Part shown: in pieces, positions 8,331 through 59,883 of the stretch | Position numbering within the stretch: position 1 is the first letter of the stretch | Layout: each line of letters starts with the position of its first letter | Source of the DNA: Bradyrhizobium diazoefficiens | Lineage (GTDB): Bacteria > Pseudomonadota > Alphaproteobacteria > Rhizobiales > Xanthobacteraceae | DNA length: 64,000 bases | Direction: 5' to 3' | Assembly: GCF_016599855.1 (NCBI RefSeq) | Contig: NZ_CP067041.1 | Span: 4,650,001-4,714,000 of the forward strand | The notes under the pieces: generated by a model | Databases searched by the model: none | What the model was told of the DNA's origin: nothing | Seen by the model: only the letters and a program-made list of their open reading frames with translations | Made by a program: the position numbers and the translations under genes

Positions 8331-8635
8331 GGGCGCGGCTTCCGTCGCCGGTGCACCCGGTTGAATCGAGCTTGTGCCGCACCGATGCCGCCTCAGGGAT
8401 TTCTGAGCTTCGACAACGACGCTCTCGAGCTCAACCTTGCGGGCGTATTCGAACTTGGGGGAGGTCTGCTGTCTGCTCAAAAGCGGATTTTCGCCGGCGC
8501 TACTTATGGGTCCGATTTGGCCCACGAGCAGACCAATTCTAACCTGGCTGCCGCGGGAGCGAATGCTCAAGCAAGAAACGCAGCATTTCACTCGGGGCGT
8601 CCGGTCGTCGCGGATCAAGGGCTGCCTCCCGAGGA
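8331..8635. other. Intergenic stretch with no gene seen
   Basis: About 300 bp between two converging genes. Short frames occur on both strands, but none has a recognisable motif or ribosome site. No clear terminator hairpin followed by T residues was seen. Confidence 0.5.
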
Positions 8636-14831: not shown

Positions 14832-15689
14832 ATGAGTGCAATCAGATACCGTTCAGCCGAGGCCGGCGGCGTCAAAGTATTCTATCGCGAGGCACGGAAT
14901 GTCGGTGCGCCGAAGCTGCTTCTCTTGCACGGCTTTCCGACCGCGAGCCACATGTTCCGCAACCTCATTCCCCTGCTTGCCGACAAATTCCACGTCGTCG
15001 CACCGGACTTTCCCGGTTTCGGTCTATCCGACATGCCACCGCGAGAAAAATTCAAGTACACGTTTGAAAACATCGCTCGCGTAATCGAGCGCTTTACTGA
15101 GATCGTGGGCTTCGATCGCTTCGCAGTTTACGTCTTCGACTACGGTGCGCCGACGGGATTTCGATTGGCCGTTCGCCATCCCGAGCGAATCACGGCGATT
15201 ATCTCGCAGAACGGTAACGCCTACGAGGAGGGTCTCAGTGACGGATGGACGCCGATCCGGGCTTACTGGGAAGATGCGACGCCAGCGAACCGAAAAGCCC
15301 TTCGGGAATTCCTCACACCCGAGAGGACAAACTGGCAGTACACCCACGGTCTGCTCGACCCGACACTTGTGTCACCGGACGGCCAGAATCTCGATAATTA
15401 CTATTTGGCTCGTCCCGGCGTCGATGAAATTCAGCTCGACCTCTTTGGCGATTACAAGAGCAATGTCGCGCTCTACCCCTCGTTCCAGCAGTATTTCCGG
15501 ACGCACAACCCGCCGTTTCTTGCGGTGTGGGGCAAGAACGATCCGTTCTTCCTTCCGGCGGGCGCCGAAGCGTTCAGGCGCGATATTCCGAACGCACAAG
15601 TGCGCTTCTTCGACACCGGGCATTTCGCGCTTGAGACCCATTGCAACGAGATCGCGTCGGCCATTCGCGATTTTCTCCCGTCCAGGTGA
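14832..15689 (+). CDS. Alpha/beta hydrolase with aspartate nucleophile (dehalogenase/epoxide-hydrolase type)
   Basis: A 285-residue protein. HGFPTASHMFRN forms the oxyanion region. The elbow is VFDYGAPTGFRLA, placing Asp103 at the nucleophile position, as in haloalkane and haloacetate dehalogenases and epoxide hydrolases. The acid is probably in WGKNDPFFLP and the base is in DTGHFALETH. It lacks the Trp that follows the nucleophile in true haloalkane dehalogenases (Tyr here), so the substrate is open. It starts 39 bp after the preceding hydrolase with a strong AAAGGAG site, implying one transcript. Confidence 0.8.
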   Translation: MSAIRYRSAEAGGVKVFYREARNVGAPKLLLLHGFPTASHMFRNLIPLLADKFHVVAPDFPGFGLSDMPPREKFKYTFENIARVIERFTEIVGFDRFAVYVFDYGAPTGFRLAVRHPERITAIISQNGNAYEEGLSDGWTPIRAYWEDATPANRKALREFLTPERTNWQYTHGLLDPTLVSPDGQNLDNYYLARPGVDEIQLDLFGDYKSNVALYPSFQQYFRTHNPPFLAVWGKNDPFFLPAGAEAFRRDIPNAQVRFFDTGHFALETHCNEIASAIRDFLPSR

Positions 15690-28975: not shown

Positions 28976-29998
28976 TCAGCTCGCTTTACGATCCCGCGCC
29001 GCACCCTTTGGTGCGGCGCGCTTCTGCCGGCTGCGTATAGCGGTCGATTTTGGCGGGCGCTCGGCCGCGATGCTGCGCCGGAGTGCATCCATGAGGCTGA
29101 CTACGTTCTCGCGCGAAGGCTTCATAGCAGGGGCGTGCTGTGCTGACCGCTTCACCTGTTTCTTGCGCAGAATGCGCGCAAGCGCTGTCCTGTAATGATC
29201 CTCCAGCATCGCCGGATCGAATTCATCTGACTTCGTCCGGATGATGTGCTGCGCGAGCTTCATCATCTCGGCGGGAAGTTTCATTTCGGGGATCTCCCCG
29301 AAGTAATCGTCCGCTGCGCGCACTTCCTGCGCGAAACGCAGCGTCACGCCCCGAAGGCCGCGGTCCATCGGCTGGACCAGAAAATTCCGCTCGCGCGAGG
29401 ACAACACGACCCGGGCAAGGCCGATGACATCCTCGCGGCGCATCGCGTCGCGGATCACCGCGAACGATTCCTGACCGATGTCCCCACGCGGCACGATGTA
29501 GTAAGGCTTCTCGAAGTACCGCGCATCGATCTGCCCCGCCGGCAAAAACCTCTCGATCTCGATCGTGTGCGTATTCTCAGGTCGGGGACGTGGCGTCATC
29601 GCTTTCTCGTCGTCGTCATCATCGTCGTCGCCAGGCTCTTGGTCTTCCTGCTCGTGCAACTCGGTGGGCACCGTCGGCGGGCTTTCGCGGCGCGGTGCAT
29701 CGTTGATCTCCACCGCACCGGGCAGCGGTCGCTCGCTCCGCGCCTGCTCTAGGTCGCGGTCCTCGACCAGCAAGAACTCGTTCTCGCCGACCTGATAACC
29801 GCGCGCCTTGTTCGATGAATCCACCGCTTCGCCGGTAACTGAATCGACGAGCTTGTGCTTGAGGCGATGGCCGGTGCGTCGATTCACCTGCCGAAAGTAG
29901 AGCCGCTCCGCCGCCGAGGTCGCGGGGTAAAGCGCGACGGGGCATGAGACGAAGGAGAACTTTAGATAGCCTTTCCAAAACGCGCGAGAGGCGGGCAC
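28976..29998 (-). CDS. ku: Ku protein (non-homologous end joining), with acidic insert
   Basis: A 340-residue bacterial Ku. FWKGYLKFSFVSCPVALYPATS is the start of the Ku core. HKLVDSVTGEAVDSS and KGYQVGENEFLLVEDRDLE lie near positions 50-85, then ERFLPAGQIDARYFEKPYYIVP and a basic C-terminal tail. Unlike the second Ku (47133-48062), it carries a ~45-residue insert near residues 100-140 with seven consecutive Asp. Ku rings bind double-strand DNA ends and recruit LigD. No ligD lies in the window, so ligation must be supplied elsewhere. Confidence 0.93.
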   Translation of the reverse strand: MPASRAFWKGYLKFSFVSCPVALYPATSAAERLYFRQVNRRTGHRLKHKLVDSVTGEAVDSSNKARGYQVGENEFLLVEDRDLEQARSERPLPGAVEINDAPRRESPPTVPTELHEQEDQEPGDDDDDDDEKAMTPRPRPENTHTIEIERFLPAGQIDARYFEKPYYIVPRGDIGQESFAVIRDAMRREDVIGLARVVLSSRERNFLVQPMDRGLRGVTLRFAQEVRAADDYFGEIPEMKLPAEMMKLAQHIIRTKSDEFDPAMLEDHYRTALARILRKKQVKRSAQHAPAMKPSRENVVSLMDALRRSIAAERPPKSTAIRSRQKRAAPKGAARDRKAS

Positions 29999-37730: not shown

Positions 37731-37949
37731 ATGGACGTCCCATCGCCGGAAATGCGCCGCGTTCTGCGCCAAGCCCGCCTGTACGGATACCTCCAGGCGC
37801 GCGAAGGCAGGCTGTTTCATCCCGGCGGCAACAAGGCCCTGTGCCGCATCGCGACGGCGGAAGCGATGGAGCGGGCTCGATGGCTGAAACGGCAAGCCGG
37901 CCGCTATGAGATCACGCCCGAGGGCTCATCGGCGGAGGCGCTAGATTGA
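37731..37949 (+). CDS. Hypothetical 72-aa protein
   Basis: It begins MDVPSPEMRRVLRQARLYGYL and ends YEITPEGSSAEALD. Predicted soluble, helical, basic in the middle; the layout (helix, short hairpin, helix) could be a winged-helix-like fold, but no family is recognised. Start choice is by the first Met after GAGGGAC. Confidence 0.5.
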   Translation: MDVPSPEMRRVLRQARLYGYLQAREGRLFHPGGNKALCRIATAEAMERARWLKRQAGRYEITPEGSSAEALD

Positions 37950-38049
37950 TGGCCAACTCTATTCCCTGCCTTCCGCAGCGCGGTCTCGGGCTTCTCCTTG
38001 TGCCGCGCCCAACGAATCTCCTCAGCCCGCTCGCGTTCGGCACGGCTGG

Positions 38050-38202
38050 ATGAACGACTGGGCCGACCCGCATGCGCGCGAACGCGCTTTTGACATCCCA
38101 CATCGAAATCCGCCGGCGGGCGTGTCTCCGGAGGAAGCAGTCGCCCAGATCCGGGACATCCTGGATTCGATCGGCGATACCTGCCCGGAGTGTGAGCCGT
38201 AA
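38050..38202 (+). CDS. 50-aa protein ending in IGDTCPEC
   Basis: Starts MNDWADPHARERAFDI and ends with DSIGDTCPECEP. The terminal Cys-Pro-Glu-Cys could bind a metal. The same family is present as a broken copy at 4094-4259, supporting that this short frame is a real gene. Function unknown. Confidence 0.6.
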   Translation: MNDWADPHARERAFDIPHRNPPAGVSPEEAVAQIRDILDSIGDTCPECEP

Positions 38203-38417
38203 TGTCCTTAACGACCAATTTTCCTCAATGCGTCTGACGGGGATCAGCGAGCGACGCCATCTCTGGCTAGGCGAAGCGATAAGCCCCACTTCGCCGACGC
38301 CGCCCTGTATTCTGGCCTGGCTTGATAGCGCCGTGTCCACGACCGAATGTACGGTTAAGCGAACAAGGATTGCAGGCGATCCAGGGCAACATTGGCTACG
38401 GCGCCGTCGTGATCGGC

Positions 38418-39323
38418 TCAGTTTGTGTACTTGTTCTGCGTCGCGTCGATCGGGCCGTCGAAGGCCTGCTTTAGGCGGATGATTGCGATCGTGATATCGG
38501 CGATGAACCGGTTGTACAAAAACAGGAGGCCGGTCAGTCCCGCGATCTGTTCGGGCCATAGCTTGTCGGTCATGTCGCGCCAAGCAATACCGCCGGGCTT
38601 GTCGAAGCCCTTGACATGCTCTCGCGCGATTTTGCGTATGCGCCGCGCGGTCTCGTCATATTCGGCGGTAAGCGCAACGGGTGCGAGCGAATCTTTGAGC
38701 GCTATCTCCAGGTAATCCGGCCACACACCCAAGACGCGATAGTCGCTCGCAGCACCGTGGTGCAAAAAGGCGTCGCGAATGTCTCGAAGCAACACTTGTG
38801 TTCGTTCGGGAGCAGCGTCGGGGTCGATCAGATGGAATTTTTCAACTCCTTCGGGGAGGCCGTAGGGAATGAGTTCGGCATCCCGCCCTTGAAGCAGTTG
38901 TTCATTCCGGCCGCCGGCGTTTCGTTCGTGCCAAGCTTCGTTGAACGCCGTGATCAGGATCAGATATTTCGGATTCCCGTAGTTGAGCAGATCGAGCGTC
39001 GCCTTCAACTTTGCGATTTCCGTCTCCTTCCATCCCAATTTCAGCAATTTCGGAGTTGGGTTGGGCATAGCAGGTCCCGGAACGATCGAATTGAGTCGAA
39101 CCAGATCCGCTCCGTCTTCCGCGTAGCGGGTAGAAATCTGTGGTTTCAAGACAGCCCAAGCATCGGGAATGAACTGCGGAAATTGGGACATGACGCGGAT
39201 AGCGAAAGCCACCCAAGGAACACGTAGAGTGCTATGGATGTCCTCATAGATAGCGCCGAGTTGGCCCGAGGCTTGGTCGTAATCCACCTGCGGAAATTTT
39301 GCCAATACCGAGTGCTTAGCCAT
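38418..39323 (-). CDS. dehI: 2-haloacid dehalogenase, DehI family (group I)
   Basis: 301 residues from ATG 39323 (GGAAGGAG upstream). Strong DehI family features: YEDIHSTLRVPWVAF, then LNYGNPKYLILITA with Asn117 (equivalent of DehI Asn114 by my alignment from memory), and HHGAASDY with Ala192 and catalytic Asp194 (equivalents of Ala187 and Asp189). Ala at that position marks the DL-type enzymes that attack both isomers. Reaction: 2-haloalkanoate + H2O to 2-hydroxyalkanoate + halide, in the cytoplasm, without covalent intermediate. It is the last gene of the sigma54-driven operon. Confidence 0.92.
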   Translation of the reverse strand: MAKHSVLAKFPQVDYDQASGQLGAIYEDIHSTLRVPWVAFAIRVMSQFPQFIPDAWAVLKPQISTRYAEDGADLVRLNSIVPGPAMPNPTPKLLKLGWKETEIAKLKATLDLLNYGNPKYLILITAFNEAWHERNAGGRNEQLLQGRDAELIPYGLPEGVEKFHLIDPDAAPERTQVLLRDIRDAFLHHGAASDYRVLGVWPDYLEIALKDSLAPVALTAEYDETARRIRKIAREHVKGFDKPGGIAWRDMTDKLWPEQIAGLTGLLFLYNRFIADITIAIIRLKQAFDGPIDATQNKYTN

Positions 39324-39503
39324 TCGGATCGTCTCCTTCCGTTCTCGTTCCCGTATTTGCGATGCGCGCTCGTATCGTCTTGATGGGCCGCGTCGGACCA
39401 ACGCCATCCCGGCAACCCGGCGCGAACGGATGCCATCTGTTGTATTGCCCGTGCAAGGGAAGAACGCCCTTCAGCGGAGATGCGTGGTGCCAGCCTGATG
39501 TCA

Positions 39504-41177
39504 TCAGTCGAGGTCGGTGATGTCGCGATCCTTGGTCTCGGGCACGGTGAGGAGGCCGATGATGAAGGTCGCGGCTGCGATAACGATCGGGTACCAGAGC
39601 CCGAAATAGATGTCGCCGGTCTGGGCGACCATGGCGAAGGCGGCGGCCGGCAGGAGCCCGCCGAACCAACCGTTGCCGATATGGTAGGGCAGCGACAGCC
39701 CGGAATAGCGGATGCGGGCCGGGAAGAGTTCGACCAATGCCGCTGCCATCGGTCCGTAGACCATGGTGACATAGATTGCGAGCACGAAGAGAAGCCCGAT
39801 GATCGATAGAACCTGAGCGCTCGAAAGATCGAAGACATGGGTCATCCTGACCGTGCTGGGGTCGCCGGCCTTCGGGTAGCCCGCGGCCTGAAGGGCCGCA
39901 GTGACGGCGCTTCGGGATTCTCCGAGCTTGCCCGCCTCGAAGGGCACGGCCGTGCCGTTGACGACGACGCGCACCGGCTCGCCCGCCGGAGCGGCCTGCC
40001 GGTCGTAGCGGACCGAATTCTGGGCGAGGTAGGCGCGGGCGAGGTCGCAGGGCGTCGTGAAGACGCGGTTGCCGACTGGGTTGAACAGGTCACCGCACTG
40101 GGCCGGATCGGCGGCAACGGTGACCTTGACTGTCTCGAGCGCGCGGGCGAGCGCCGGGTTGGCGCCCTCGGTGATTGCCTGGAAAATCGGGGAGTAGGTC
40201 ACCGCGGCGAGAAGGCAGCCGCCGATGATAATGGGCTTGCGGCCGACCTTGTCGGAGAGCCAGCCGAAGACCACGAAAAAGCCCGAGCCGAGGAGGAGCG
40301 ACCAGCAGACGAGCAACGTCGCGGTGAAACCGTCGACCTTAAGGATGCTCTGCAGGAAGAAGAGCACGTAGAATTGGCCCGTGTACCAGACGACTGCCTG
40401 GCCGGCGACGAGACCGAAGAGCGCTATGAGGGCAATTTTGATGTTCGACCAACGGCCGAAGGCCTCGGTCAGCGGTGCCTTCGACGCCTTGCCCTCAACC
40501 TTCATCCGCCGAAACACCGGGGACTCGTTGAGTTGCATGCGGATCCAGACCGAGATGCCGAGCAGTACGGAAGAAAACAGGAAGGGCACCCGCCAGCCCC
40601 AGACCTGGAAGGCCTGCTCGCCGACGACAGTGCGCGTCCCGAGGATCACGAGGAGCGAAAGAAAGAGGCCGAGCGTCGCCGTTGTCTGGATCCAGGACGT
40701 GTAAAAGCCGCGTCGGCCTGGCGGAGCGTGCTCGGCGACGTAGATCGCGGCGCCCCCATACTCGCCGCCGAGCGCAAGGCCCTGGAGGAGGCGCAGCATG
40801 ATCAAGCCGATCGGCGCCCAGATACCGAAAGTGGCCGAGCCCGGCAGGAGGCCGACCAGAAAGGTCGATAGCCCCATGATCAGGATGGTTACGAGAAAGG
40901 TGTATTTCCGGCCGACGAGGTCGCCGACGCGCCCAAAGACGAGCGCGCCGAAAGTGCGGACGAGCGAGCCTGCGGCAAACGCGAGTAGCGCAAAGATCGC
41001 CTGCGTCGCCGGCGGGAAGGCACCGAAGAAGGTCGCGCCGATAATCGCGGCGAGCGAACCGTAGAGGAAGAAGTCGTACCACTCGAAGACGGTGCCGAGA
41101 GATGAGGCGAAGATGATCTTGCGCTCCTCGCGCGTGACGCCCACGGTTTCGCGGAGTGGTATGGCAGTCGTGGTCAT
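39504..41177 (-). CDS. MFS haloacid permease, Deh4p/metabolite:H+ symporter type
   Basis: A 557-residue transporter of the metabolite:H+ symporter family with 12 membrane helices: FEWYDFFLYGSLA in TM1, the loop motif GRVGDLVGRKYTF after TM2, RLLQGLALGGEYGGA in TM4. A large loop of about 110 residues near 365-475 (DPAQCGDLFNPVGN) sits late in the protein, as I recall for the Burkholderia haloacid permease Deh4p, which has similar length. Function: uptake of haloacetate or halopropionate with protons. It lies between the aldolase-like and dehI genes on the same strand. Confidence 0.87.
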   Translation of the reverse strand: MTTTAIPLRETVGVTREERKIIFASSLGTVFEWYDFFLYGSLAAIIGATFFGAFPPATQAIFALLAFAAGSLVRTFGALVFGRVGDLVGRKYTFLVTILIMGLSTFLVGLLPGSATFGIWAPIGLIMLRLLQGLALGGEYGGAAIYVAEHAPPGRRGFYTSWIQTTATLGLFLSLLVILGTRTVVGEQAFQVWGWRVPFLFSSVLLGISVWIRMQLNESPVFRRMKVEGKASKAPLTEAFGRWSNIKIALIALFGLVAGQAVVWYTGQFYVLFFLQSILKVDGFTATLLVCWSLLLGSGFFVVFGWLSDKVGRKPIIIGGCLLAAVTYSPIFQAITEGANPALARALETVKVTVAADPAQCGDLFNPVGNRVFTTPCDLARAYLAQNSVRYDRQAAPAGEPVRVVVNGTAVPFEAGKLGESRSAVTAALQAAGYPKAGDPSTVRMTHVFDLSSAQVLSIIGLLFVLAIYVTMVYGPMAAALVELFPARIRYSGLSLPYHIGNGWFGGLLPAAAFAMVAQTGDIYFGLWYPIVIAAATFIIGLLTVPETKDRDITDLD

Positions 41178-41239
41178 AGGTGTTTCCTCTGGATCTGTTG
41201 TTGATTGATCGAAGCGCAGTGATGGAGCAGCTTGCCGAT

Positions 41240-42340
41240 CTAGTAGCTCCCATTCCCGGCGGTTCTCGAAGGCTTCTGGCTCTTCGAATCGTCCCGCCCG
41301 GGAAGCGCACGGAGCGCGTCAGCGACAATCTTCAGGGCATCATCCACATCGCTCTTTGCGATGTCGAGATAGAAGACCGCCCGTACGGCATCGACACCCG
41401 AGGGCAGCATCCATAGGCCACGACAGTGGGCCTCATCGACGAAACCGCCGGCGTCGACCTCGGTCAGCCGGTAGCGGACGATATTGGTCTTCACCGTCGT
41501 TGGGTCGATCTCGACGCCATCGAGCTGTGCCAGTCCTTGGGCAAAGCGGCTCGCCAGCGCATGGGTGTCGCCCAGCCGCGAGCGATGGTTCTGGACCGCA
41601 TAGAGGGCGCCGGCCGCGATGATCCCGGCCTGTCGGAAACCGCCGCCGAACTGCTGCTTGAAACGACGCGCCCGGGTGATGAAGTCCTCAGTCCCCACTA
41701 GGCAGGAGCCGACAGGCGCGCCAAGCGCCTTTGATAGGCAGACGCTGATCGTATCGAATGGTCTGGCATAGTCGGCCTCTGAGATGCCGGTCGCTGCAGT
41801 GGCGTGCCACAGGCGCGCGCCATCAAGGTGCAGCATCAAATCATGCCGGCGGCCGGCGGCCACGACCGCGTGGATTGCCTTCAACGGCCAGACGGCGCCG
41901 CCGCCGATATTGTGGGTGTTCTCTAGACAAAGTAGACGCACTGGGGCGGCGACCGTCGCAGGAAAGAACGGGTGGGAAACGCCCATCGCCGCATCGACGT
42001 CGCCCGCGGTGAAGATCCCCCGGACACCGGGAAGAAGGCGTGGAAGTACCCCAGAGAATGCAGCTGGGGCGCCGCCTTCCAGGATGTAGACGTGGGCATT
42101 TTGGTCGACCAGCACCGCGTCACCCGGTTGAGTGTGGGCTCGGATGGCGACCTGGTTGGTCATAGTGCCGGTCGGCATGTAGACCGCGTCCTCCTTGCCC
42201 AGAAGGTCAGATACCGCGCGCTCCAGTGCCTTGACGGTAGGATCATCGCCATAGACGTCGTCACCGACATCTGCATTGGCCATAGCTCGTCGCATCTCTG
42301 GGGTGGGACGGCTACACGTGTCGCTGCGAAGGTCGATCAT
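41240..42340 (-). CDS. ltaE: Low-specificity threonine aldolase-like PLP enzyme
   Basis: 366 residues from ATG 42340. Fold-type I PLP enzyme of the beta-eliminating lyase family: LRSDTCSRPTPEMRRAM at the N-terminus, GDDVYGDDPTV, HLDGARLWHA with the PLP-binding Asp, and the Schiff-base Lys204 in VCLSKALGAPVGS. Threonine aldolases split threonine to glycine and acetaldehyde. The gene lies 29 bp after a haloacrylate-hydratase-like gene and before the haloacid permease, so its real substrate may be a halogenated or hydroxylated amino acid; that is speculation. Confidence 0.85.
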   Translation of the reverse strand: MIDLRSDTCSRPTPEMRRAMANADVGDDVYGDDPTVKALERAVSDLLGKEDAVYMPTGTMTNQVAIRAHTQPGDAVLVDQNAHVYILEGGAPAAFSGVLPRLLPGVRGIFTAGDVDAAMGVSHPFFPATVAAPVRLLCLENTHNIGGGAVWPLKAIHAVVAAGRRHDLMLHLDGARLWHATAATGISEADYARPFDTISVCLSKALGAPVGSCLVGTEDFITRARRFKQQFGGGFRQAGIIAAGALYAVQNHRSRLGDTHALASRFAQGLAQLDGVEIDPTTVKTNIVRYRLTEVDAGGFVDEAHCRGLWMLPSGVDAVRAVFYLDIAKSDVDDALKIVADALRALPGRDDSKSQKPSRTAGNGSY

Positions 42341-42369
42341 GGCGTGCTCCTTGGTTTTGCAGGAATCTG

Positions 42370-44013
42370 CTAGATCGGCGCGTCCGCAAAACGCGGCATG
42401 CCCTCCACGACGCGCACCACCTGCTTCTTGAGCCAGGCGTCGCTCGTCTGCGGGAAATCCGACCGGGCGTGGGTGCCGCGGCTCTCGGTCCGGCGCAGCA
42501 TCGCTTGGCGCATGCAATCGGAGAGCATGATGCCACGCTCGACGCGCAGAACCTCCTGCATTTCGCGGTACCCGTTCCAGCCGAACCCGCGCACCTCGTC
42601 GCGCAGCACGACAAGGTGTATCCCGGCCTCCTCGAGGCGGCCGCGGTCACGGATAGGGCCCAGTGCCATCTGGTTTGCGTGGCGCAGCTTCGTCATGGCT
42701 TCGGCGACCCGCGCCGGCGCACCAGCCTTGCGCTCCGGCGGCAAGAGCGAGGCATTGGTGCGGGTGGCATCGCCGTTCAGCGACCGCGCCGCGTGCCGAC
42801 CGGCGATGCGGCCGAAGGTGATCGCCTCGACGAGCGCCGTGCCGCCGTGGCGGTTGGCGCCATGGACGCCGCCGGCGATCTCGCCCGCCGCGTAGACCTT
42901 CGGCAGGCTTGTCCGGCCATCCACGTCAACCTTGAGGCCGCCGATCGTGTAGTGGGACGAGGGCGCAACCTGCACCGGTCGCTCGTGGAAATTCGGGATG
43001 AACCTCGACAGGAAGGTTCCGGTGAGCGAGTCCGGTGCCCAGTCCGCGGACTTGGTCTCACGGAAGTCGACGAAGATGCGCCGGCCCTCGACGATCTCCG
43101 ACTGGATAAGCGCCGAGAGCTGGTCCCAATTGTGCAGGTCGGCGAGGTACTGAGAGGCCTCGCCGAGGTGTTTGCGCAGCACGTTCTCGCCCTGGTCGTT
43201 GACGAGGGTCGAGAGCTTCGGGAAGTCCGGGTAGAGAAAGATCGGCGGGATGCCATCCTCGCGCACAGCGAGCGGGTAGAACTGGATGAACTCCAGGTCG
43301 ATGAGCGCGGCGCCCGCCTCTGCGGCCATGCCGTGGCCATCACCGGTCAGCGTCTCGGGGGTGTCGGTGAACTCGTAGAGGCCCTGCAGCCCGCCGGTCG
43401 CCAGGATGACAGCGCGTGCCGCGACCGTGACGGACTTGCCGTCGACGAGCGCGCCGACCGCAGTGGCGCCGGGCTCGAGCACGAGAGCGCTGCCCCTCAG
43501 TCGGGTGATCTTGGGCGAGGCCTTCACGGCCTTACGCAGTTGCGCGTAGAGCGCTGTGCCGTGGGTCGACGAGAACTCCATCATAAGTCCCGTCATGTCC
43601 TCGACGCTGTCGCGCCCCTGGTCCTCGGTGCCGAAGCCCGATAAGAGCTCGCGTCCGCTCTTGCCGAGCGCACGCCGCGCGCGCAGACCCCGCTCAACCC
43701 GCTCGACAGGAATGCGATAAGCCGCGATCGCCTCGCTCATCTCCTTCGGGGCCTCATCGACAAGGCGCCTCAGGAGCGCTTGGTCGCACACCCCCTTGCC
43801 CGTCACCTCGGCCATGGCTTGGATGAGCTGGTTGCGGGTGAAGCCCTCATGCGCCGCATAGGTCAGAAATCCGGTCGAGATGGCGGTGCTCGGCGGACGG
43901 CCGTCGCTGAGCAGGACCACGTCGCAACCCTCTTCGCTTGCGGTCAGCGCGGCAGTCTGACCCGCACAGCCCTCTCCGACGACAAGTACATCCGTGAATA
44001 AGATTTCCGCCAT
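42370..44013 (-). CDS. FAD enzyme of the fumarate reductase/aspartate oxidase fold; 2-haloacrylate hydratase candidate
   Basis: 547 residues from ATG 44013. The FAD loop is DVLVVGEGCAGQTAAL and the second FAD site is VYAAGEIAGGVHGANRHGGTALVEA. The C-terminal helical domain has MQEVLRVERGIMLSDCM. No iron-sulfur or membrane subunit gene is adjacent, so it is not a respiratory complex. From memory, 2-haloacrylate hydratase of Pseudomonas sp. YL is a 547-residue FADH2-requiring flavoenzyme of this fold that adds water to 2-chloroacrylate to give pyruvate and chloride. Same length and haloacid operon context support that call; an aspartate-oxidase-like role is the alternative. Confidence 0.75.
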   Translation of the reverse strand: MAEILFTDVLVVGEGCAGQTAALTASEEGCDVVLLSDGRPPSTAISTGFLTYAAHEGFTRNQLIQAMAEVTGKGVCDQALLRRLVDEAPKEMSEAIAAYRIPVERVERGLRARRALGKSGRELLSGFGTEDQGRDSVEDMTGLMMEFSSTHGTALYAQLRKAVKASPKITRLRGSALVLEPGATAVGALVDGKSVTVAARAVILATGGLQGLYEFTDTPETLTGDGHGMAAEAGAALIDLEFIQFYPLAVREDGIPPIFLYPDFPKLSTLVNDQGENVLRKHLGEASQYLADLHNWDQLSALIQSEIVEGRRIFVDFRETKSADWAPDSLTGTFLSRFIPNFHERPVQVAPSSHYTIGGLKVDVDGRTSLPKVYAAGEIAGGVHGANRHGGTALVEAITFGRIAGRHAARSLNGDATRTNASLLPPERKAGAPARVAEAMTKLRHANQMALGPIRDRGRLEEAGIHLVVLRDEVRGFGWNGYREMQEVLRVERGIMLSDCMRQAMLRRTESRGTHARSDFPQTSDAWLKKQVVRVVEGMPRFADAPI

Positions 44014-44046
44014 ACTGCACCTCGCATGCGTTTCGCCACGAGGGCC

Positions 44047-44063
44047 TCGCAAGGGACGTGCCA
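44047..44063 (-). promoter_or_regulatory. Sigma54 (-24/-12) promoter
   Basis: Minus strand TGGCACG-TCCC-TTGCG, an almost perfect RpoN box with exact 10-nt spacing between GG and GC. The predicted start of transcription is about 12 nt downstream, leaving a short leader before ATG 44013. It fits the neighbouring sigma54 activator. Confidence 0.85.
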
Positions 44064-44136
44064 CAGCAAGATCATTTGCGTTTTCAGTGATTTGCGCAGA
44101 AGAGCGCGAGGGTCGCCCGTCTGGGGAGGATCAATT

Positions 44137-44164
44137 CTGACCGGGTCAGGTTCAAATCTGACCC
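44137..44164. promoter_or_regulatory. Upstream activator site (enhancer) for the sigma54 regulator
   Basis: CTGACC-G-GGTCAG is a 6-bp-arm palindrome. Its right arm (GGGTCAG) also forms an inverted repeat with CTGACCC after 8 bp. The group sits 75-100 bp upstream of the -24 element, the usual place for enhancer-binding proteins, and just downstream of the regulator gene. Confidence 0.65.
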
Positions 44165-44199
44165 AGGCTAAAGATGGCCGAGCGCCTTAGGCTATCCGC

Positions 44200-45879
44200 T
44201 CAATGGCTTAGGGGTCTTCGCGCTTCTCGCAGGCGCCTCTTCACGGTGGATTCGCTGACACCAAGATGCGTGGCCGCCCGACCGATCGAGCCGAAGCGCT
44301 CGACGGCGGCTCGCACGGTTTCGACCTCATGGCTGCGCGCGGCGGCCCTCAAAGGCTTGTTCGAGGGCAGCTGGCGCCCGTCCTCGACAAGGAGATCGCT
44401 GGGCAGGGTCTCGAGCCCAATCTCCTCCTCGCGTGCGGTGACGGCGAGGCGCTCAACGACGTTGCGCAGCTCTCGCACGTTACCCGGCCAAGCATAGCGC
44501 AGAAGACGCTCCATCACCGCTCCGGAGAAGCGGCGCGCGAAGCCGTACCGATCGTTGACCTCCTGTAGGAAACGGTGTGTGAGGGGCGCGACGTCCTCCG
44601 GCCGGTCCCTCAGCGGGGGAATATCGATTGGCACGACGCTCAAGCGATAGAAGAGATCCTCGCGAAATGTCCGCTCGCGCACCATGGATCGGAGGTCGCG
44701 GTTGGTCGCAGCGATCAGCCTGATGTCCACTTTGACCGTCCGGGTGCTGCCGAGACGGGTGAAGGCCCGATCTTGGAGCACCTGCAGTAGCTTTACCTGC
44801 AACGGCGCCGGCATCTCGCCGATCTCGTCAAGGAACAGGGTGCCACCATGGGCGGCCTCAAAAAGGCCCGCCTTGCCCTCTTTGCGGGCGCCCGTGAAGG
44901 CGCCGCGCTCGTAGCCGAAGAGCTCGGATTCGAGGAGCTCGGCGGGGATCGCACCGCAGTTGATCTTGACGAAGGGCCTATCGCGCCTCGTTCCCTCGGC
45001 GTGGATCAGGCGGGCGACGACGTCCTTGCCAACACCGGATTCCCCCTGGATCAGCAGCGTGGTGTCGACCCGCGCCAGGCGCAGGCCAAGATCAATCACT
45101 GCCTGCATGGCAGAGCTCGACCAAGTGGCGCGATCGGTGCGCCGGCTTTCCCAGCGCAGTTGCTCGAGTTCGGAACGGGTGCGGGCCAGATCAGCCTCAG
45201 CCTCGCTGAGGCGCTGCTGCAGGGCGACGAGTTCGGTCAAGTCGCGGGAGTTGATGATGACCTTGCGGACATTACCGCGCTCGTCGAAGAGCGGGATACC
45301 CGTTGCCAACACGCTCTTACCTGACTTGGTGCGCTGCACCGCCGATTGTCGCTGCTTGGTGGTGATAACCTTCCAGGTGATCAGGGGTTTGATGTAGCCG
45401 AGTCGCTCCAGCTCGCGCGCGTCGCGGCCGATGAAGTCGCGGGCGTTAAGGCCATAGGCTCGCTCGAATCCCTCGTTAAGCCAAAGCGAGCGTCCACTTC
45501 CGTCAGCGACGTAAATACCATCAAAGCAGTTGTGAAAGATCTCCTGAAAGTCGGTGTGGAGTTCGCGCAGCTCCCGCAGGTCCGGGTCTTTCGGATCCAT
45601 GTAGCTGAACGGCACGAAAACGACGATGTGCCCATCCTGCCCACGACCGGTCACGTCGACATAAAACACCGCGTCGCCGATGCTGACCCACACTGGTTCA
45701 CCCCGCTCGAGCGCGTCTGCGAGTCCGACCGTGCCCGGGAAGGCCTCAGCCAGTTCCGCCAAGGAAGCATAGGCTCCGGCGAACAAGCTCCGCAGGGTGT
45801 GGTTCATGAACGCGATGACCCCGTTGCGAATGCTCATCACGCCGATCGGCAAGCGATCCAAGATATTCAATTCGGTCAT
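44200..45879 (-). CDS. Sigma54-dependent activator with PAS sensor domains
   Basis: 559 residues from ATG 45879. Residues 5-95 and 110-220 are PAS-type sensor domains ([45 protein letters not shown]). The AAA+ domain has Walker A GESGVGKD (279-286), GAFTGA (326-331), Walker [10 protein letters not shown] (345-353) and the R-finger region. A Fis-type helix-turn-helix occupies 525-552 ([16 protein letters not shown]). It belongs to the same class as DehRI/DhlR, known activators of haloacid dehalogenase genes. It lies just upstream of the haloacid operon in the same direction. PAS domains probably bind the haloacid or acrylate. Confidence 0.9.
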
Positions 45880-46085
45880 GAACCTATCTTGGCTGACATC
45901 AGCTCGCCTTGCCAGCGTGATCGGTCGATTTGCTCGTCCCAGAAGCGGATGAGGCCGGAAAAGCGCGCCTCCACCCTCGACGGACTCGAGGTATTCCTCG
46001 CTGGTCTGTCCTGGCGCGCGCTCCATAATCCAGTCGTCCCGTACGAGTTCGTCCTCATGCGCATCGGACGTCTTCTGGGGCGACG
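45876..46085 (-). pseudogene. Small gene coupled to the sigma54 regulator, frameshifted
   Basis: One frame reads MERAPGQTSEEYLESVE and a second continues [31 protein letters not shown], whose TGA overlaps the regulator's ATG (ATGA). Such overlap suggests translational coupling. The frames meet in a G-run near 45970-45980. I do not recognise the family. Either the N-terminal part is broken or the shorter 62-aa frame from 46064 is the true gene. Confidence 0.4.
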
Positions 46086-46242
46086 CTCTCGTCCGTGCCG
46101 GCCCTATCCATCGCGAGCGCAACCGCCCGCTCCATGGCATCGACTTCCTTCGGCACGCGGCCATCGCGCACGATCGCTCCTCCAAGATAAAGCCGGCGAT
46201 AGGCCGACTTCCGCTGCCTGGCTGGTCGCTGCCGCGTCGCCG

Positions 46243-46863
46243 TCAGTTTTCGTGCGGCCGTCGCTCGGCGGCGTCGAGCTTCTTTCGCTCCTTCTCCCAA
46301 CGGGTCTCTTCGTTTTGAGCTCTCCTTTCGAGAGCGTCGCGCTCGCTCTGGATAGCCGCGGCCCTCCTCGCATGCTCGCGCTCGGCCTCGTCCAAGGCTG
46401 CCTGCGCCTTCGCGACGGACTTCTCCCGGCGCTCGCGCTCCTTCCGCCTGCTGGCTTCCTCCTTCGCCCGTTCGCGTTCGCGGCGCCTCCGCTCCCGTTC
46501 GTAGGCGACAGCGGCCTTCCGCTCCGCCGCCTCGTTGAGTGGTCGCGAGTGAGACTTCTTCGGTCTACGGCTGGCCGGCTTGCGGGCAACCTTGGACGGC
46601 TTTCCCTCCTCGCCCACTTCGAATGGAAGATCGGAATGCTCCGCGAAGCGCCCGTTCGATCCCGCCGGCCGCTTCAGCACCACACCAGGCTTCTCCATGG
46701 TTGCGGCGACGATCTCTGGGTCGTCCGTTTGGGTCGCCACACCCTGGTGGAACAGATTGCTGTCCGCGCCCCATGCCTCGAGGGCTGCCTTCATCGACGG
46801 CGCGGCAACCGCCTGATCAAAGAAACCTAGCGACGTCCGATAGGTCTTGAGCTTCCTTGCCAT
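46243..46863 (-). CDS. Ku-linked protein with long charged coiled coil
   Basis: A 206-residue protein. The N-terminal globular part reads KLKTYRTSLGFFDQAVAAPSMKAALEAWG and NLFHQGVATQTDDPEIVAATMEKPGVVLKRPAGSNG. From about residue 90 it is a Lys/Glu/Arg coiled coil (ERERRRRERERAKEE). Third gene of a three-gene operon behind ku, with gaps of 20 and 24 bp. A broken paralogue lies at 20897-21440. I know of such genes near rhizobial Ku loci but not their function; a structural or DNA-end bridging role is only a guess. Confidence 0.72.
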   Translation of the reverse strand: MARKLKTYRTSLGFFDQAVAAPSMKAALEAWGADSNLFHQGVATQTDDPEIVAATMEKPGVVLKRPAGSNGRFAEHSDLPFEVGEEGKPSKVARKPASRRPKKSHSRPLNEAAERKAAVAYERERRRRERERAKEEASRRKERERREKSVAKAQAALDEAEREHARRAAAIQSERDALERRAQNEETRWEKERKKLDAAERRPHEN

Positions 46864-47132: not shown

Positions 47133-48062
47133 TCAGGCCGATTTCCGTTGCGGCTTGGCGGCAGGCTTCTTCGCCCCGGCCTCCTTCGCCGGCTTCTTGC
47201 CGGCGATCGGCATCAGCATTTCCTTCTGTCCGGCCGCCGCCTTACGCGCCTTCTTGGTCGCTTTCTTCGGAGCCTCGGTTTCCGCCGTAGCGCCGCCGAC
47301 GCTCCGCCGCAGCGCCTCCATCAGGTCGACGACGTTGCCGGTAGCAGGCTTCTCCTTCGGCGTGATCGGCTTGCCGGCCCGCTTCTGGTTGATGAGCTCG
47401 ACCAGCGCGCTTTCGTAGTGGTCGTCGAACTTCTTAGGGTCGAACCGCCCGGCCTTCTGGTTCACGATATGCTTCGCGAGGTCCAGCATGTCCTTGGTGA
47501 CCTTCACGTCCTGGATCTCGTCGAAATACTCCTGTTCGCTACGGACTTCGTACGGGTATCGCAGCAGCGTGCCGACCAAGCCCTTGTCCATCGGCTCGAG
47601 CGCGATGATGTGCTCGCGGTTGGTGAGCACGACCCGCCCGATCGCGACCTTGTCCATCTCGCGGATGGTCTCGCGGATCACCGCGAAGGCGTCGTGCCCG
47701 ACCTTGCCGTCCGGACGCAGGTAGTAGGGCCGGATCAGGTAGCGCGGGTCGATGTCGGTTCTGTCCACGAACTCGTCGATCTCGATGGTGCGCGTGGATT
47801 CCAGCGCGATCTCCTCGAGCTCCTCCTTGGTGACCTCGATGAACTGATCCTTCTCGAGCTGGTACCCCTTGACGATCTCCTCGTTCGGCACCTCGTCGCC
47901 GGTATCGGCGTCGACCTTGAGATACTTGATGCGATGCCCGGTCTGCCGGTTCAGCTGGTTGAAGCTGATCTTCTCGGACTCGGACGTGGCGGGGTACAGC
48001 GCCACTGGGCAGGTGACCAGGGACAGTCGCAGGAAGCCTTTCCAGTTGGCGCGCGGGGCCAT
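47133..48062 (-). CDS. ku: Ku protein (non-homologous end joining), canonical
   Basis: A 309-residue Ku without the acidic insert of the copy at 28976-29998. NWKGFLRLSLVTCPVALYPAT, KYLKVDADTGDEVPNEEIVKGYQLEKDQFIEV and DPRYLIRPYYLRPDG are conserved core segments. The C-terminus is strongly Lys-rich (KKATKKARKAAAGQK), a DNA-binding extension known in several bacterial Ku proteins. First gene of an operon with a membrane peptide and a coiled-coil protein. Rhizobia often carry several Ku with different LigD partners; none is encoded here. Confidence 0.94.
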   Translation of the reverse strand: MAPRANWKGFLRLSLVTCPVALYPATSESEKISFNQLNRQTGHRIKYLKVDADTGDEVPNEEIVKGYQLEKDQFIEVTKEELEEIALESTRTIEIDEFVDRTDIDPRYLIRPYYLRPDGKVGHDAFAVIRETIREMDKVAIGRVVLTNREHIIALEPMDKGLVGTLLRYPYEVRSEQEYFDEIQDVKVTKDMLDLAKHIVNQKAGRFDPKKFDDHYESALVELINQKRAGKPITPKEKPATGNVVDLMEALRRSVGGATAETEAPKKATKKARKAAAGQKEMLMPIAGKKPAKEAGAKKPAAKPQRKSA

Positions 48063-50207: not shown

Positions 50208-51102
50208 GAGCAGATTCTGATCAGGCGCGATCATAACCGGCAGCGGTGAAGAAGTTCAGACACTGTTGGGGGGTGAAGGCGGCAACGGCTGCGGCGATGG
50301 CGTCGAACAAGGTCTCGATTGATCTGGCAGCCGCCTTTCGAAGGGCTGCTTTGAGCTTGGCGAAGGCCATTTCGATCGGATTGAGGTCGGGGGAATAGGG
50401 CGGCAGATAGAGGAGGCGGGCACCTGCCGCCTCGATTGCGATGCCGACCTCGGCGCGCTTGTGTGCTGCGAGATTGTCCATCACCACGATGTCGCCCGGC
50501 TTTAGCGTCGGTACGAGAACTTGGGTCAAGTAAGCCTCGAACGCCAAACCATTCATGGGACCGTCGAGGACCATTGGCGCAGTCATGCCGGTCGCCCTGA
50601 GCGCGCCGACGAAGGTGGTCGTCTTCCAATGGCCGTGTGGGATCGCTGCGACACAGCGCTGGCCGTAAGGTGAACGGCCATAGAGCCGCGCCATCTTGGT
50701 CGAGGCTCCCGTCTCGTCGATGAATACCAGCCGGTGGATGTCGATCTCAGGCTGAGATGCCTTCCATGCCGCGCGTTCAGCGGCCACGTCGGGCCGATCC
50801 TGCTCGCTGGCGTGCAAAGTTTTTTTTGAAGGTGATGTTGCGGCGATCGAAGAACCGCCAGACCACGCTCGGCGCGAAACGCTCGCCGTGGACTTTGAAG
50901 AGATGGTCGGCGATCTCGGCCAGCGTCATGTCAGGCGTAGCCCCGACCAGGGAGAGGATCTCTGCAGCATGCCCCTCGATCCGGGCCGAACGCCGGTCTC
51001 CGCCCTGTGCTCCCGCCTCACAAGTGCCGGTGCTTCGCCACTCGCTGACCAGTTCGATCGCTGTTGAGGGCGCCACGCCGAACCGGCCGGCAGCGCCCCG
51101 AC
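50208..51102 (-). mobile_element. IS630-family element, truncated by IS copy 2
   Basis: The left end is placed just after a TA dinucleotide (50206-50207), the target preference of IS630/mariner elements. The right end is lost: the transposase reading frame is cut by the IS that begins at 51103. The missing part does not reappear after that IS (52948 onward), so this is not a simple insertion but a rearranged junction. Confidence 0.75.
50221..51102 (-). pseudogene. IS630 transposase, two frames, N-terminus removed
   Basis: The upstream frame has a helix-turn-helix (SRGAAGRFGVAPSTAIELVSEW) and the downstream frame the DDE core: [19 protein letters not shown] and [14 protein letters not shown]. 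The frames join at a run of eight A (T at 50820-50827), the usual place for programmed frameshifting in this family, so the shift itself may be natural. The first ~20 residues are replaced by IS sequence, so the product is probably inactive. Confidence 0.8.
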
Positions 51103-51129: not shown

Positions 51130-51211
51130 CGCATTGCCTCACTAAAAATGTTACCGGACAACTTCCCTGTCGAGTCTGGGGCGGAGCTGCCGAATCAGTT
51201 CGGTGGCGGCT

Positions 51212-52897
51212 ATGGCAGGGAAGATCAGCATGCGCGCAAAGCGCGAGATCACATCCGCGCTGGCCGAGCGTTATCGGTCGAGCGGGCGGCTCGAGAAGGG
51301 ACGGATCCTAGACGAGCTGTGCGCCGTTACAGGCTGGCATCGCAAGCATGCGGTACGTGCACTTCGGCCACGCGGGACAGTTGGGCCGGACAAGGTCGAG
51401 GCACCGCAAGAGCGCAAGCGTAGATATGGCGCGACGGTCAAGGACGCGATGACAGCGCTGTGGGAAGCGTCGGATCGGGTGTGCGGCAAGCGGCTCAAGG
51501 TGATGATCCCGACCTTGCTGCCTGCTCTCGAGCAACATGGCCGATTGCAGCTTGGCCAGTCGGACCGTGATCGTGTTCTGGCCATCAGCGCCGCCACCAT
51601 CGATCGCCTGCTCGTCGATGTGAAGATCGCAGCGAGCGGCGGCAGGCGGCGCCGCGCCGGATTCTATTCGGCAATCCGGCGCGAGGTCCCGATCCGTACG
51701 TTCAATGACTGGAACAGCCCGGTGCCCGGCTTCTGCGAGGTCGATATGGTCGCCCATGGCGGCACGTCGGTGGCTGGCTCGTTCATCCAAACCCTGACGA
51801 TGGTCGATGTCGCCACCGGCTGGACGGAGTGTCTGCCGCTGCTGACGCGGGAAGGTTCGCTGGTCGTCGAGGCGATCAACCGCGCACAGGGCCTGTTCCC
51901 CTGGCTCTTGCGCGGCGTTGACTTCGACAACGACAGCGCCTTCATGAACGACGTCGTCGTGCCATGGTGTCGCCAACAGAAGCTCGAAGTCACGCGCTCG
52001 CGCGCGTACAAGAAGAACGATCAGGCGTTCGTCGAGCAGAAGAATGGTGCCGTCGTCCGCCGCCTCATGGGCTATGGCCGCTTTGATGGCGTCGAAACGG
52101 CCCGCGTGATGGGGCGCCTCTATGCGGCATCACGACTTTACGTCAACTTCTTCCAGCCGTCGTTCAAGCTGAAGGAGAAGCGCCGCGAAGGGGCTAAAGT
52201 GATCAAGCGCTATCATCTCCCATCGACGCCCTACGAGCGTGCATTAGCGCATCCCAAGGTGACCGCCGCCGTGAAGACACGGCTGCGCGATCAGTATCGA
52301 TCGCTCGATCCGGTCGCGCTGTTGGCCGAGATTCGCGCAACCCAGGACGAACTCGGCAATCGCGTCGATCGTCGTGCCGGACAGGCGCGCGGCCTGCAAT
52401 CCGCTCACACGAGCAACGCGCCGGTGACCGCGGCGACGTTCGCGAAGACGCTCGGCAAGAGGGTGACCGCCGGCGAGCCGCGTGCCACGCACCGGCGGAC
52501 TCGTCGGCCCTATAAAACCAGGGTTCGCATGCCGTCCAAGCTCGACCCGCATATTGCTGCGATCGAGGGCTGGCTCGCGGAGCAGCCGCAACTGACGGCG
52601 CTCGCAATTGTCAGCCGGCTGAGCGAGAAATACCCTGAGGAGTTCGGAAAGAGACAGCATTCGATTGTGCAACGTCTGCTGAGGGCGCTCAGACGGAGGG
52701 CTGCCGAACGGTTGGTCGCCCAAGGCCCGCTCGGCGATGCCACGACCGCTACCCCATTGCCCGGGGTTGTGGACGGCTCGGGCTATGTAGGGCCCGACCC
52801 GCCCACAGCCCCTCTCGTCGAGCAAGCGGGGAAAGCCATCTGGCGCGGCCGATCAATCGACATCGGATCGTCATCCGCAATGGCGCCATCAGGGTAA
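51212..52897 (+). CDS. DDE (rve-type) transposase
   Basis: 561 residues from ATG 51212. Residues 1-60 are a helix-turn-helix region (KGRILDELCAVTGWHRKHAVRAL). The integrase core has CEVDMVAHGG (Asp), GVDFDNDSAFMN (Asp) and QAFVEQKNGAVVRRLMGYGR (Glu). A basic C-terminal part (ATHRRTRRPYKTRVRMPSKLD) may bind the ends. Size and single-gene layout resemble the integrase-catalytic transposases often filed under ISNCY or similar groups; exact family is not certain. It is probably the active source for both IS copies. Confidence 0.88.
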   Translation: MAGKISMRAKREITSALAERYRSSGRLEKGRILDELCAVTGWHRKHAVRALRPRGTVGPDKVEAPQERKRRYGATVKDAMTALWEASDRVCGKRLKVMIPTLLPALEQHGRLQLGQSDRDRVLAISAATIDRLLVDVKIAASGGRRRRAGFYSAIRREVPIRTFNDWNSPVPGFCEVDMVAHGGTSVAGSFIQTLTMVDVATGWTECLPLLTREGSLVVEAINRAQGLFPWLLRGVDFDNDSAFMNDVVVPWCRQQKLEVTRSRAYKKNDQAFVEQKNGAVVRRLMGYGRFDGVETARVMGRLYAASRLYVNFFQPSFKLKEKRREGAKVIKRYHLPSTPYERALAHPKVTAAVKTRLRDQYRSLDPVALLAEIRATQDELGNRVDRRAGQARGLQSAHTSNAPVTAATFAKTLGKRVTAGEPRATHRRTRRPYKTRVRMPSKLDPHIAAIEGWLAEQPQLTALAIVSRLSEKYPEEFGKRQHSIVQRLLRALRRRAAERLVAQGPLGDATTATPLPGVVDGSGYVGPDPPTAPLVEQAGKAIWRGRSIDIGSSSAMAPSG

Positions 52898-58605: not shown

Positions 58606-59875
58606 ATGAATCTTCCGTATGCATATGAGATATTTATGCTTATGACAGAATACTCAAAGGACAAAAAAGAGGACATTTCTGCGGCTCCAGATCGCGGCGA
58701 GGCGGTTTTTTCAATGGAACCGCTCCTCATTAGAGAGGATTCTCGCCATCGGGGCGGGCTGACCGATTTGGCGGTCGAGCTCGTCGCCAAGTCGGCCGGT
58801 TTCAAGAGAAGCTTGCCGCAAAGCCTGCTGGGCTCTTTGGCTGATCTCGTCCGAGCCATGAACTGCTACTACAGCAACCTCATCGAGGGTCACGATACGC
58901 ACCCGGTCGATATCGAACGCGCCCTGAAAAACGACTATAGCGCCGATCCCAAAAAGCGCGATCTTCAGCTCGAAGCCAAGGCACATATCGTGGTGCAGCG
59001 CTGGATTGACGAAGGCAATCTTCGCGGTCGCGCTGTGACCACGGACGGCATCCGGGATATCCACCGTCGCTTCTGCGAACATTTACCCGACGCGATGTTA
59101 TGGATCGAGGAGCCCGACACAAAAGAGCGAATTCGCGTTGTGCCCGGCGAATTGCGGCTGCGCGACGTCAAAGTGGGACGTCATATTGCCGTCAGCCCAG
59201 GCGCTGTCCCACGCTTTCTTGCTCATTTCGAGAAAACATACAGCGGTGTTGGAAAGGCTGACGCCATTTTGGCCACCGCCGCCGCGCATCATCGCCTTTT
59301 GTGGATTCACCCCTTTCTCGACGGCAATGGCCGGGTCACGCGGCTGATGTCGCACGCAATGCTGTTGGACGGTCTCGATACTGGCGCCGTTTGGTCGGTG
59401 GCTCGCGGGCTTGCTCGAAGTGATGGCGCATATAAACAGCATCTCACCCAATGCGATCTTCCGCGGCGCAATGACTTGGACGGTCGAGGCAACCTTAGCG
59501 AGGAAGCACTCGCCTCGTTTACGCGTTTCTTCCTGGAGACCTGCATAGATCAAGTCAACTTTATGGACTCGCTGATGCAGCCAGATCGGTTGCGTACGCG
59601 CATATTTCTATGGGCGGAAGAGGAAACGCGCCTCAGCAAACTTCCACCGAAAGCGGGCGCTGTGGTTGAAGCTATCCTCTATCGCGGCGAACTCCCGCGC
59701 GGCGATGTCGCCAATCTTCTCGATCTCACACCACGTCATGCCCGGCGCATCGTTTCGGAACTTCTTAGCCGTGGCGTCCTAACCTCAAAGGGATCGCGCG
59801 ATCCATTGCTGCTAGCCTTCCCCGCCACCCTCGCCTCGCGCTGGATGCCTGGACTATTTCCGGAGCACACGACGA

Positions 59876-59883
<8 letters not shown>
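58606..59883 (+). CDS. Fic family protein (AMP-transferase), class II
   Basis: A 425-residue protein. The Fic active site is HPFLDGNGRVTR with catalytic His235 (residues 235-246). An N-terminal inhibitory helix S90-N-L-I-E94-G is the (S/T)xxxE(G/N) motif whose Glu blocks ATP, so activity should be self-restrained. A C-terminal winged-helix-like region (LPRGDVANLLDLTPRHARRIVSELLSRGVL) is common in this class. It lies next to a nuclease gene and overlaps a partner gene by 8 bp. Likely a regulator of, or a toxin against, a cytoplasmic target. Confidence 0.87.

Follow-up and report, generated by a model that had tools for sequence, protein, structure and literature searches.

A cluster of five genes in Bradyrhizobium diazoefficiens reads best as a DehR-type, sigma54-controlled and haloacid-responsive catabolic unit, as in Pseudomonas sp. 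PP3, a reading to which we give a probability of roughly 60%, mainly because of the kinship of its regulator and because of DehI. The genes stand on the minus strand and in a single direction, in the order activator, flavoprotein, PLP-dependent aldolase, MFS transporter and DehI (Table 1), inside the window, which is the whole stretch of 64 kb that was analysed; the source genome is a single contig of 7,100,878 bases. A previous interpretation of the DNA letters (the sequence-only reading) had described an activator, an upstream site, a promoter and four downstream genes, and all of these parts were found, with the family of each gene confirmed by Pfam. It had also called the pathway complete, which overstates what the aldolase and the transporter show. 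Comparison with other sequences establishes the kinship of the regulator, the conservation of the promoter and upstream site, and the sequence family of DehI.

How would such a unit work? The DehR-type activator would use its N-terminal part to sense a haloacrylate or a short 2-halocarboxylic acid, would bind the upstream repeat and, with sigma54 RNA polymerase, would open the promoter in front of the flavoprotein gene. The flavoprotein would be made first, and most likely dehalogenates a 2-haloacrylate-type acid by reduced-flavin hydration. The aldolase and a presumed uptake permease would be transcribed next, and DehI, probably reached by read-through, would hydrolyse both enantiomers of 2-haloacids (chloropropionate, chloroacetate) to hydroxyacids.

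Table 1. Genes and regulatory elements of the cluster (window coordinates).
Feature	Position	Strand	Basis
Activator: PAS-AAA+-HTH sigma54 activator, DehR-type	44200-45879	minus	Pfam Sigma54_activat, AAA lid, PAS; GAFTGA
Putative upstream activator site, two overlapping inverted repeats	44136-44164	minus	repeat analysis, conservation
sigma54 -24/-12 promoter TGGCACGTCCCTTGC (TGGCACG-N4-TTGC)	44049-44063	minus	motif match, conservation in Dyella flava
Flavoprotein: FAD_binding_2, 547 aa, candidate 2-haloacrylate-acting enzyme	42370-44013	minus	Pfam, fold comparison
Aldolase: PLP-dependent threonine-aldolase-type, GntG family	41240-42340	minus	NF041359, Pfam
MFS transporter, metabolite:H+ symporter type	39504-41177	minus	Pfam, NCBIfam
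DehI: DL-2-haloacid dehalogenase by sequence	38418-39323	minus	PF10778, DL-DEX chain matches

The regulator, its relatives and the promoter region

The activator combines a PAS domain, an AAA+ domain with GAFTGA and a C-terminal HTH, the architecture of a DehR-type sigma54 activator, and the source genome has one sigma54 gene. In the accessible part of PMC4899344, DehR controls dehE of Rhizobium RC1 and the proposed model has chloropropionates as inducers. Where are the relatives of this activator found? In the plasmid collection 677 records match it at E <= 1e-60, and five of the best 25 were inspected. The best three of the 677 are a few genes away from haloacid dehalogenase genes bearing a sigma54-type promoter, which makes the activator kin to regulators near 2-haloacid dehalogenase genes. 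First comes the pYS1 regulator of Burkholderia cepacia (59.2% over residues 6-449, the N-terminal part included), followed by those of Polaromonas JS666 (52.6%, residues 100-553) and Xanthobacter dioxanivorans (48.7%, residues 96-551). The latter two are divergent from a row of DUF485, cation acetate symporter and 'haloacid dehalogenase type II', but they align with the activator from residue 96-100 onward only, which counts against the haloacid-unit reading. So does the arrangement on pYS1, where the regulator is divergent from dehI and an IS5 lies between the two; this regulator is also shorter (460 aa), with GAFTGS replacing GAFTGA. Near the lower plasmid matches from Priestia (37.5%) and Aureimonas (43%), the inspected stretch has no dehalogenase.

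In a tree of 11 regulators, the window activator and its Dyella counterpart are joined with support of 99/99. The three dehalogenase regulators are set apart from four flavoprotein-unit regulators with support of 74/65 only, and the window and Dyella pair has no clear place among the dehalogenase regulators, a further point against the haloacid-unit reading. Three Leisingera loci (L003-L005) have a regulator with an identity of about 43%, which is oriented divergently to the flavoprotein gene. At 8100-9794 of both L003 and L004 this protein keeps the sigma54-activator architecture but has lost GAFTGA, and because that motif is missing it probably no longer works with sigma54; this, too, speaks against a haloacid unit. 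The pattern TGGCA[CT]-N5-TTGC is absent from the three Leisingera loci, and there is no match to the activator in 19.5 kb of a further flavoprotein-bearing genome (G301).

The near-perfect promoter proposed in the sequence-only reading holds up: it lies 35 bases upstream of the flavoprotein ATG and is conserved in Dyella. Its motif has 21 copies in the 7.1-Mb genome versus 6 for the same pattern read backwards. A -24/-12 motif stands upstream of the target genes in five of five cases, namely the window, Dyella (TGGCACGTCACTTGC), pYS1 dehI (TGGCACGGGCCTTGC), Xanthobacter (TGGCACGGCGGTTGC) and JS666 (TGGCACAGTCCCTGC, picked up with a looser pattern). The putative activator site consists of GGGTCAG-N8-CTGACCC overlapping CTGACC-C-GGTCAG. 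Here the earlier proposal of a 28-bp palindromic site stands in part: the site is present (44136-44163), is kept in Dyella and partly on pYS1, and occurs in one place genome-wide at no more than three mismatches, but the palindrome by itself is not significant, since an equally long arm arose in 85 of 500 shuffles. Upstream of pYS1 dehI, 17 of 22 bases match those of the window, as good a match as that seen in 1 of 2000 shuffles. The ungapped match in Dyella is weak, at 13/22 (462 of 2000 shuffles) or 16/26 (80 of 2000), and conservation becomes visible in a gapped alignment, in which both promoter and upstream site are kept. From the repeat centre to the -24 element there are 90 bases in the window, 87 in Dyella and 69 on pYS1. 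The intergenic regions of JS666 and Xanthobacter contain no clear copy of the repeat, which counts against the haloacid-unit reading. Between upstream site and promoter lies the block CAAATCACTGAAAACGC (44078-44094, minus strand), with 16 of 17 bases kept in Dyella; a role in bending or as a second binding site is possible. Taken together, the activator's plasmid kin near haloacid dehalogenase genes and a promoter region like that of pYS1 dehI argue for a DehR-type unit, and they strengthen the proposal of haloacid control by sigma54.

DehI and its place in the cluster

DehI starts with an ATG at 39323, behind AAGGAG; the query used was a 302-codon piece with one extra leading codon. It matches end to end the chains 4n2x (E 3.8e-167) and 3wj8 (E 1.7e-165) of DL-DEX Mb from Methylobacterium sp. 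CPA1, keeping the active-site Asp and deviating at scattered positions, and it matches the DehI PP3 chain 3bjx at E 2.5e-66. The name DL-DEX Mb for 4n2x follows the available text of PMC8554231. Against PF10778 the protein scores 32.3 bits (cut-off 28.9), and the six-frame genome search 25.8, under the cut-off. The Ala-Ser-Asp active site of DL-type enzymes, pointed out in the sequence-only reading, is indeed there and lines up with DL-DEX Mb and DehI PP3, chain 3wj8 having Asn at the Asp position; D-specific HadD has Asn-Ser-Asp instead. According to the part of PMC5780510 at hand, Asp189 of DehI is catalytic, and Asn203 of HadD is not conserved in DL enzymes. DehI is predicted to be a DL-2-haloacid dehalogenase.

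Does DehI belong to the same transcription unit as the genes before it? The gaps between flavoprotein and aldolase and between aldolase and transporter are 29 and 62 bases, and 180 bases (39324-39503) separate the transporter from DehI. The GC content of dehI is 0.557 versus 0.63-0.67 in the other four genes, and its GC3 0.647 versus 0.73-0.85, from which the gene appears to have been separately acquired. With this difference in base composition and the gap, a single transcript from the flavoprotein through DehI is plausible at most. A scan of 37900-46300 for sigma70-like promoters and terminator-like sites remained at chance level (1 promoter-like site versus 1.4, 5 terminator-like sites versus 5.5); it put neither a sigma70-like promoter nor a terminator-like site in the gap before DehI, and one terminator-like site (39629-39612) within the final part of the transporter gene.

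The best-surviving alternative, which we nevertheless regard as unlikely, is that of two adjacent units: a regulator-flavoprotein operon, perhaps with aldolase and transporter, for a non-halogenated or otherwise different substrate, and next to it a dehI that was acquired independently and has a promoter of its own. The base composition and the 180 bases before DehI agree with it, and so do the settings of DehI elsewhere. Among 295 family genomes DehI is found in 14 at E <= 0.001 and in 6 at an identity of at least 79%, the source genome being included in both counts. Surroundings of 16-18 kb were examined for the five other close copies, whose dehI genes have a GC of 0.54-0.60, and the contexts differ from that of the window. 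One (L033) has an SSF symporter and a HAD-type hydrolase a few genes from dehI; in L036 the neighbours of dehI are a CoA ligase and an SSF symporter, with an identical ORF layout in L037; in L034 it lies by an MFS and a TetR gene, and L035 is laid out alike. No close relative of the activator occurs in these 16-18 kb; L034 and L035 do encode, about 6 kb from dehI, a protein of 47% over 262-270 residues of the AAA+ part that falls far from the activator in the tree.

The flavoprotein, in turn, occurs with no close DehI in any of the five other genomes checked that carry it, three Leisingera genomes having partial matches of 26-29%, and the five other genomes with a close DehI have no close flavoprotein (best E 1.3e-35, 33%). 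Both results count against the haloacid-unit reading, as does the neighbourhood of the Leisingera L003 flavoprotein (about 58%), where ABC-transporter parts and RidA-type, creatininase, GATase and amidohydrolase genes, and not dehalogenases, suggest nitrogen compounds. Since the carriers of flavoprotein and of DehI never overlap elsewhere among the genomes checked, their combination is local there. In Dyella the regulator-flavoprotein pair recurs by itself, and the aldolase, the permease and DehI seem to have been added to it locally. Against two separate units stand the gap lacking a sigma70-like promoter and an activator whose type accompanies haloacid dehalogenase genes elsewhere; with such kin, recruitment of dehI is likelier than its chance landing.

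The flavoprotein, the aldolase and the transporter

The flavoprotein shares its domains and fold with fumarate reductase, succinate dehydrogenase and L-aspartate oxidase (model mean pLDDT 71.1); it has the fumarate-reductase-type FAD fold that we take 2-haloacrylate hydratase to have. Its size, 547 aa and 59.2 kDa, compares with what we assume to be 547 aa and about 59.3 kDa for the 2-haloacrylate hydratase Caa67YL, and the label 'haloacrylate hydratase' fits. The protein may represent an uncommon branch among proteins with the fold of fumarate reductase and aspartate oxidase, an assignment less certain than that of DehI. Close relatives at E <= 1e-90 were found in 2 of 385 class genomes and 1 of 398 phylum genomes (the source genome counted in both), and four of nine flavoprotein loci in named genomes reach 58-86% identity. 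Plasmid records give 445 matches, none of at least 60%; the best 40 of them lie at 27.6-30.3%, and every named feature among these 40 is an L-aspartate oxidase. Viral contigs contain no relative of the flavoprotein and none of DehI. In Dyella flava the flavoprotein follows the same regulator and promoter while the other three genes are absent from the locus, which ties the flavoprotein itself to sigma54 control.

Might it instead be an aspartate-oxidase-like amino or hydroxy acid oxidase or dehydrogenase, a partner of the aldolase in converting beta-hydroxy amino acids, and no hydratase? The fold would allow this, being common to fumarate reductase and aspartate oxidase, and the top NCBIfam score goes to an L-aspartate oxidase model, although far below its cut-off, as all of the best 25 models listed score below their own. 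A RidA-type gene near the Leisingera L003 flavoprotein and the aldolase adjoining the flavoprotein here point the same way. The active site does not. In an alignment of eight, the columns of residues 246 and 296, which we take to be those of the catalytic His and Arg in SdhA and aspartate oxidase, are occupied by Tyr246 and Trp296 in the window and in its three close relatives from Dyella, Leisingera L003 and G301, all four of which keep His354 and Arg388. The two columns read His and Arg in two relatives from the source genome (L012, L013), Tyr and Arg in the more distant L006 (32%), and Asn and a gap in L015. Because Tyr and Trp replace the dicarboxylate-site pair, function as an aspartate oxidase or succinate dehydrogenase is held unlikely. 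As the regulator, moreover, is of the dehalogenase-linked kind, we find the oxidase explanation quite improbable. Least credible, indeed little more than a long shot, is a single pathway, controlled by a sigma54 switch that senses haloacids, for the breakdown of a halogenated beta-hydroxy amino acid such as a chlorothreonine or a chlorovinyl analogue. In it the permease would import the compound, the aldolase would split it into glycine and a halo-aldehyde, and oxidation of the latter would give either chloroacetate, to be used by DehI, or 2-chloroacrylate, to be used by the flavoprotein.

The aldolase scores 347.7 bits against NF041359 (GntG family, cut-off 230), its best solved chains are L-allo-threonine aldolases, and at E <= 1e-80 it is found in one of 295 family genomes, the source genome. 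The transporter scores 331.8 bits against TIGR00883 (cut-off 443.45), the metabolite:H+ symporter family to which the haloacid permease Deh4p presumably belongs. It had been described as an MFS haloacid permease, but 204 of the 295 family genomes, among them the source genome, have a homologue at E <= 1e-100, so it is not specific to haloacid gene sets. Among the matches listed, these homologues run from 73 to 63% identity, and the source genome has a second one; in the three genomes whose surroundings were examined, ATP-synthase-type ORFs are close by, as judged by eye from the first residues.

Other genes of the window deserve mention. A haloalkane dehalogenase of the LinB kind (12530-13402, plus strand; best chain 7pw1, E 1.3e-118) lies about 25 kb from DehI and could feed haloacids upstream in a longer pathway, and a second alpha/beta hydrolase (14832-15689, plus) bears a distant resemblance to haloalkane dehalogenases and epoxide hydrolases (best E 8e-23). 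Integrase-core-like proteins (434-2560 and 51203-52897, plus; rve, just below the Pfam cut-off) and a DDE transposase (50221-50817, minus) flank the region, which suggests a mobile or variable stretch. Two Ku-domain genes (28976-29998 and 47133-48062, both minus) and a Fic-domain protein (58606-59883, plus) were also seen.

Comparison with known haloacid systems

Pseudomonas sp. PP3 offers two systems for comparison, the DEH element (dehI, dehRI) and the dehII cluster (dehII, a cryptic dehI, dehP, dehRII), in which dehRI and dehRII are sigma54-dependent activators accompanying dehI and dehII, and dehP is a putative permease (PMC12060670, as far as its text was accessible). They share with the window a DehI-family dehalogenase, a sigma54-dependent activator and, in the second cluster, a putative permease, whereas the gene list in that portion of the source is without flavoprotein or aldolase; PP3 was compared via the DehI chain 3bjx alone. 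On pYS1 the regulator is 59% and DehI 41% identical, with the same promoter motif and a similar upstream site, but beyond the divergent, IS5-interrupted arrangement, the 16 kb annotated there are without flavoprotein, aldolase or MFS. Dyella flava (L002) has the regulator at 88%, the flavoprotein at 86% and the promoter and upstream site, whereas its 21.6-kb locus has no aldolase, MFS or DehI match and its genome no DehI match. Caa67YL of Pseudomonas sp. YL is a flavin enzyme, as is the window flavoprotein, and the accessible part of PMC6100074 lists it alongside DL-DEX for that organism; the corresponding part of PMC8554231 lists DL-DEX YL and cites a title on Pseudomonas YL dehalogenases induced by 2-chloroacrylate and 2-chloropropionate.

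What, then, is new? The sequence-only reading had held that haloacid and haloacrylate pathways under one RpoN promoter were undescribed. This has to be narrowed, as sigma54 activators with dehI or dehII and a permease are known (PMC12060670) and both enzymes are already listed for Pseudomonas YL (PMC6100074), each in the part of the source available. With sigma54 control known, and both enzymes known from one organism, what was not found is only their presence in a single operon: DehI together with a haloacrylate hydratase and an aldolase did not turn up in the literature searched, which covered few subscription journals. The type of control is a known one; it is the combination of genes that seems to be new.

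The same type of regulator and the same promoter motif stand before dehalogenase genes on plasmids and before the flavoprotein in Dyella and in the window, a candidate link, at the level of regulation, between haloacid metabolism and a branch of flavoproteins about which little is known. If the cluster did serve a halogenated beta-hydroxy amino acid, the flavoprotein would be the founding member of a clade of dehalogenating flavoenzymes, with Tyr246/Trp296 as its mark. Should the protein be a haloacrylate hydratase, the locus would give genetic access to a dehalogenation reaction that has seldom been studied.
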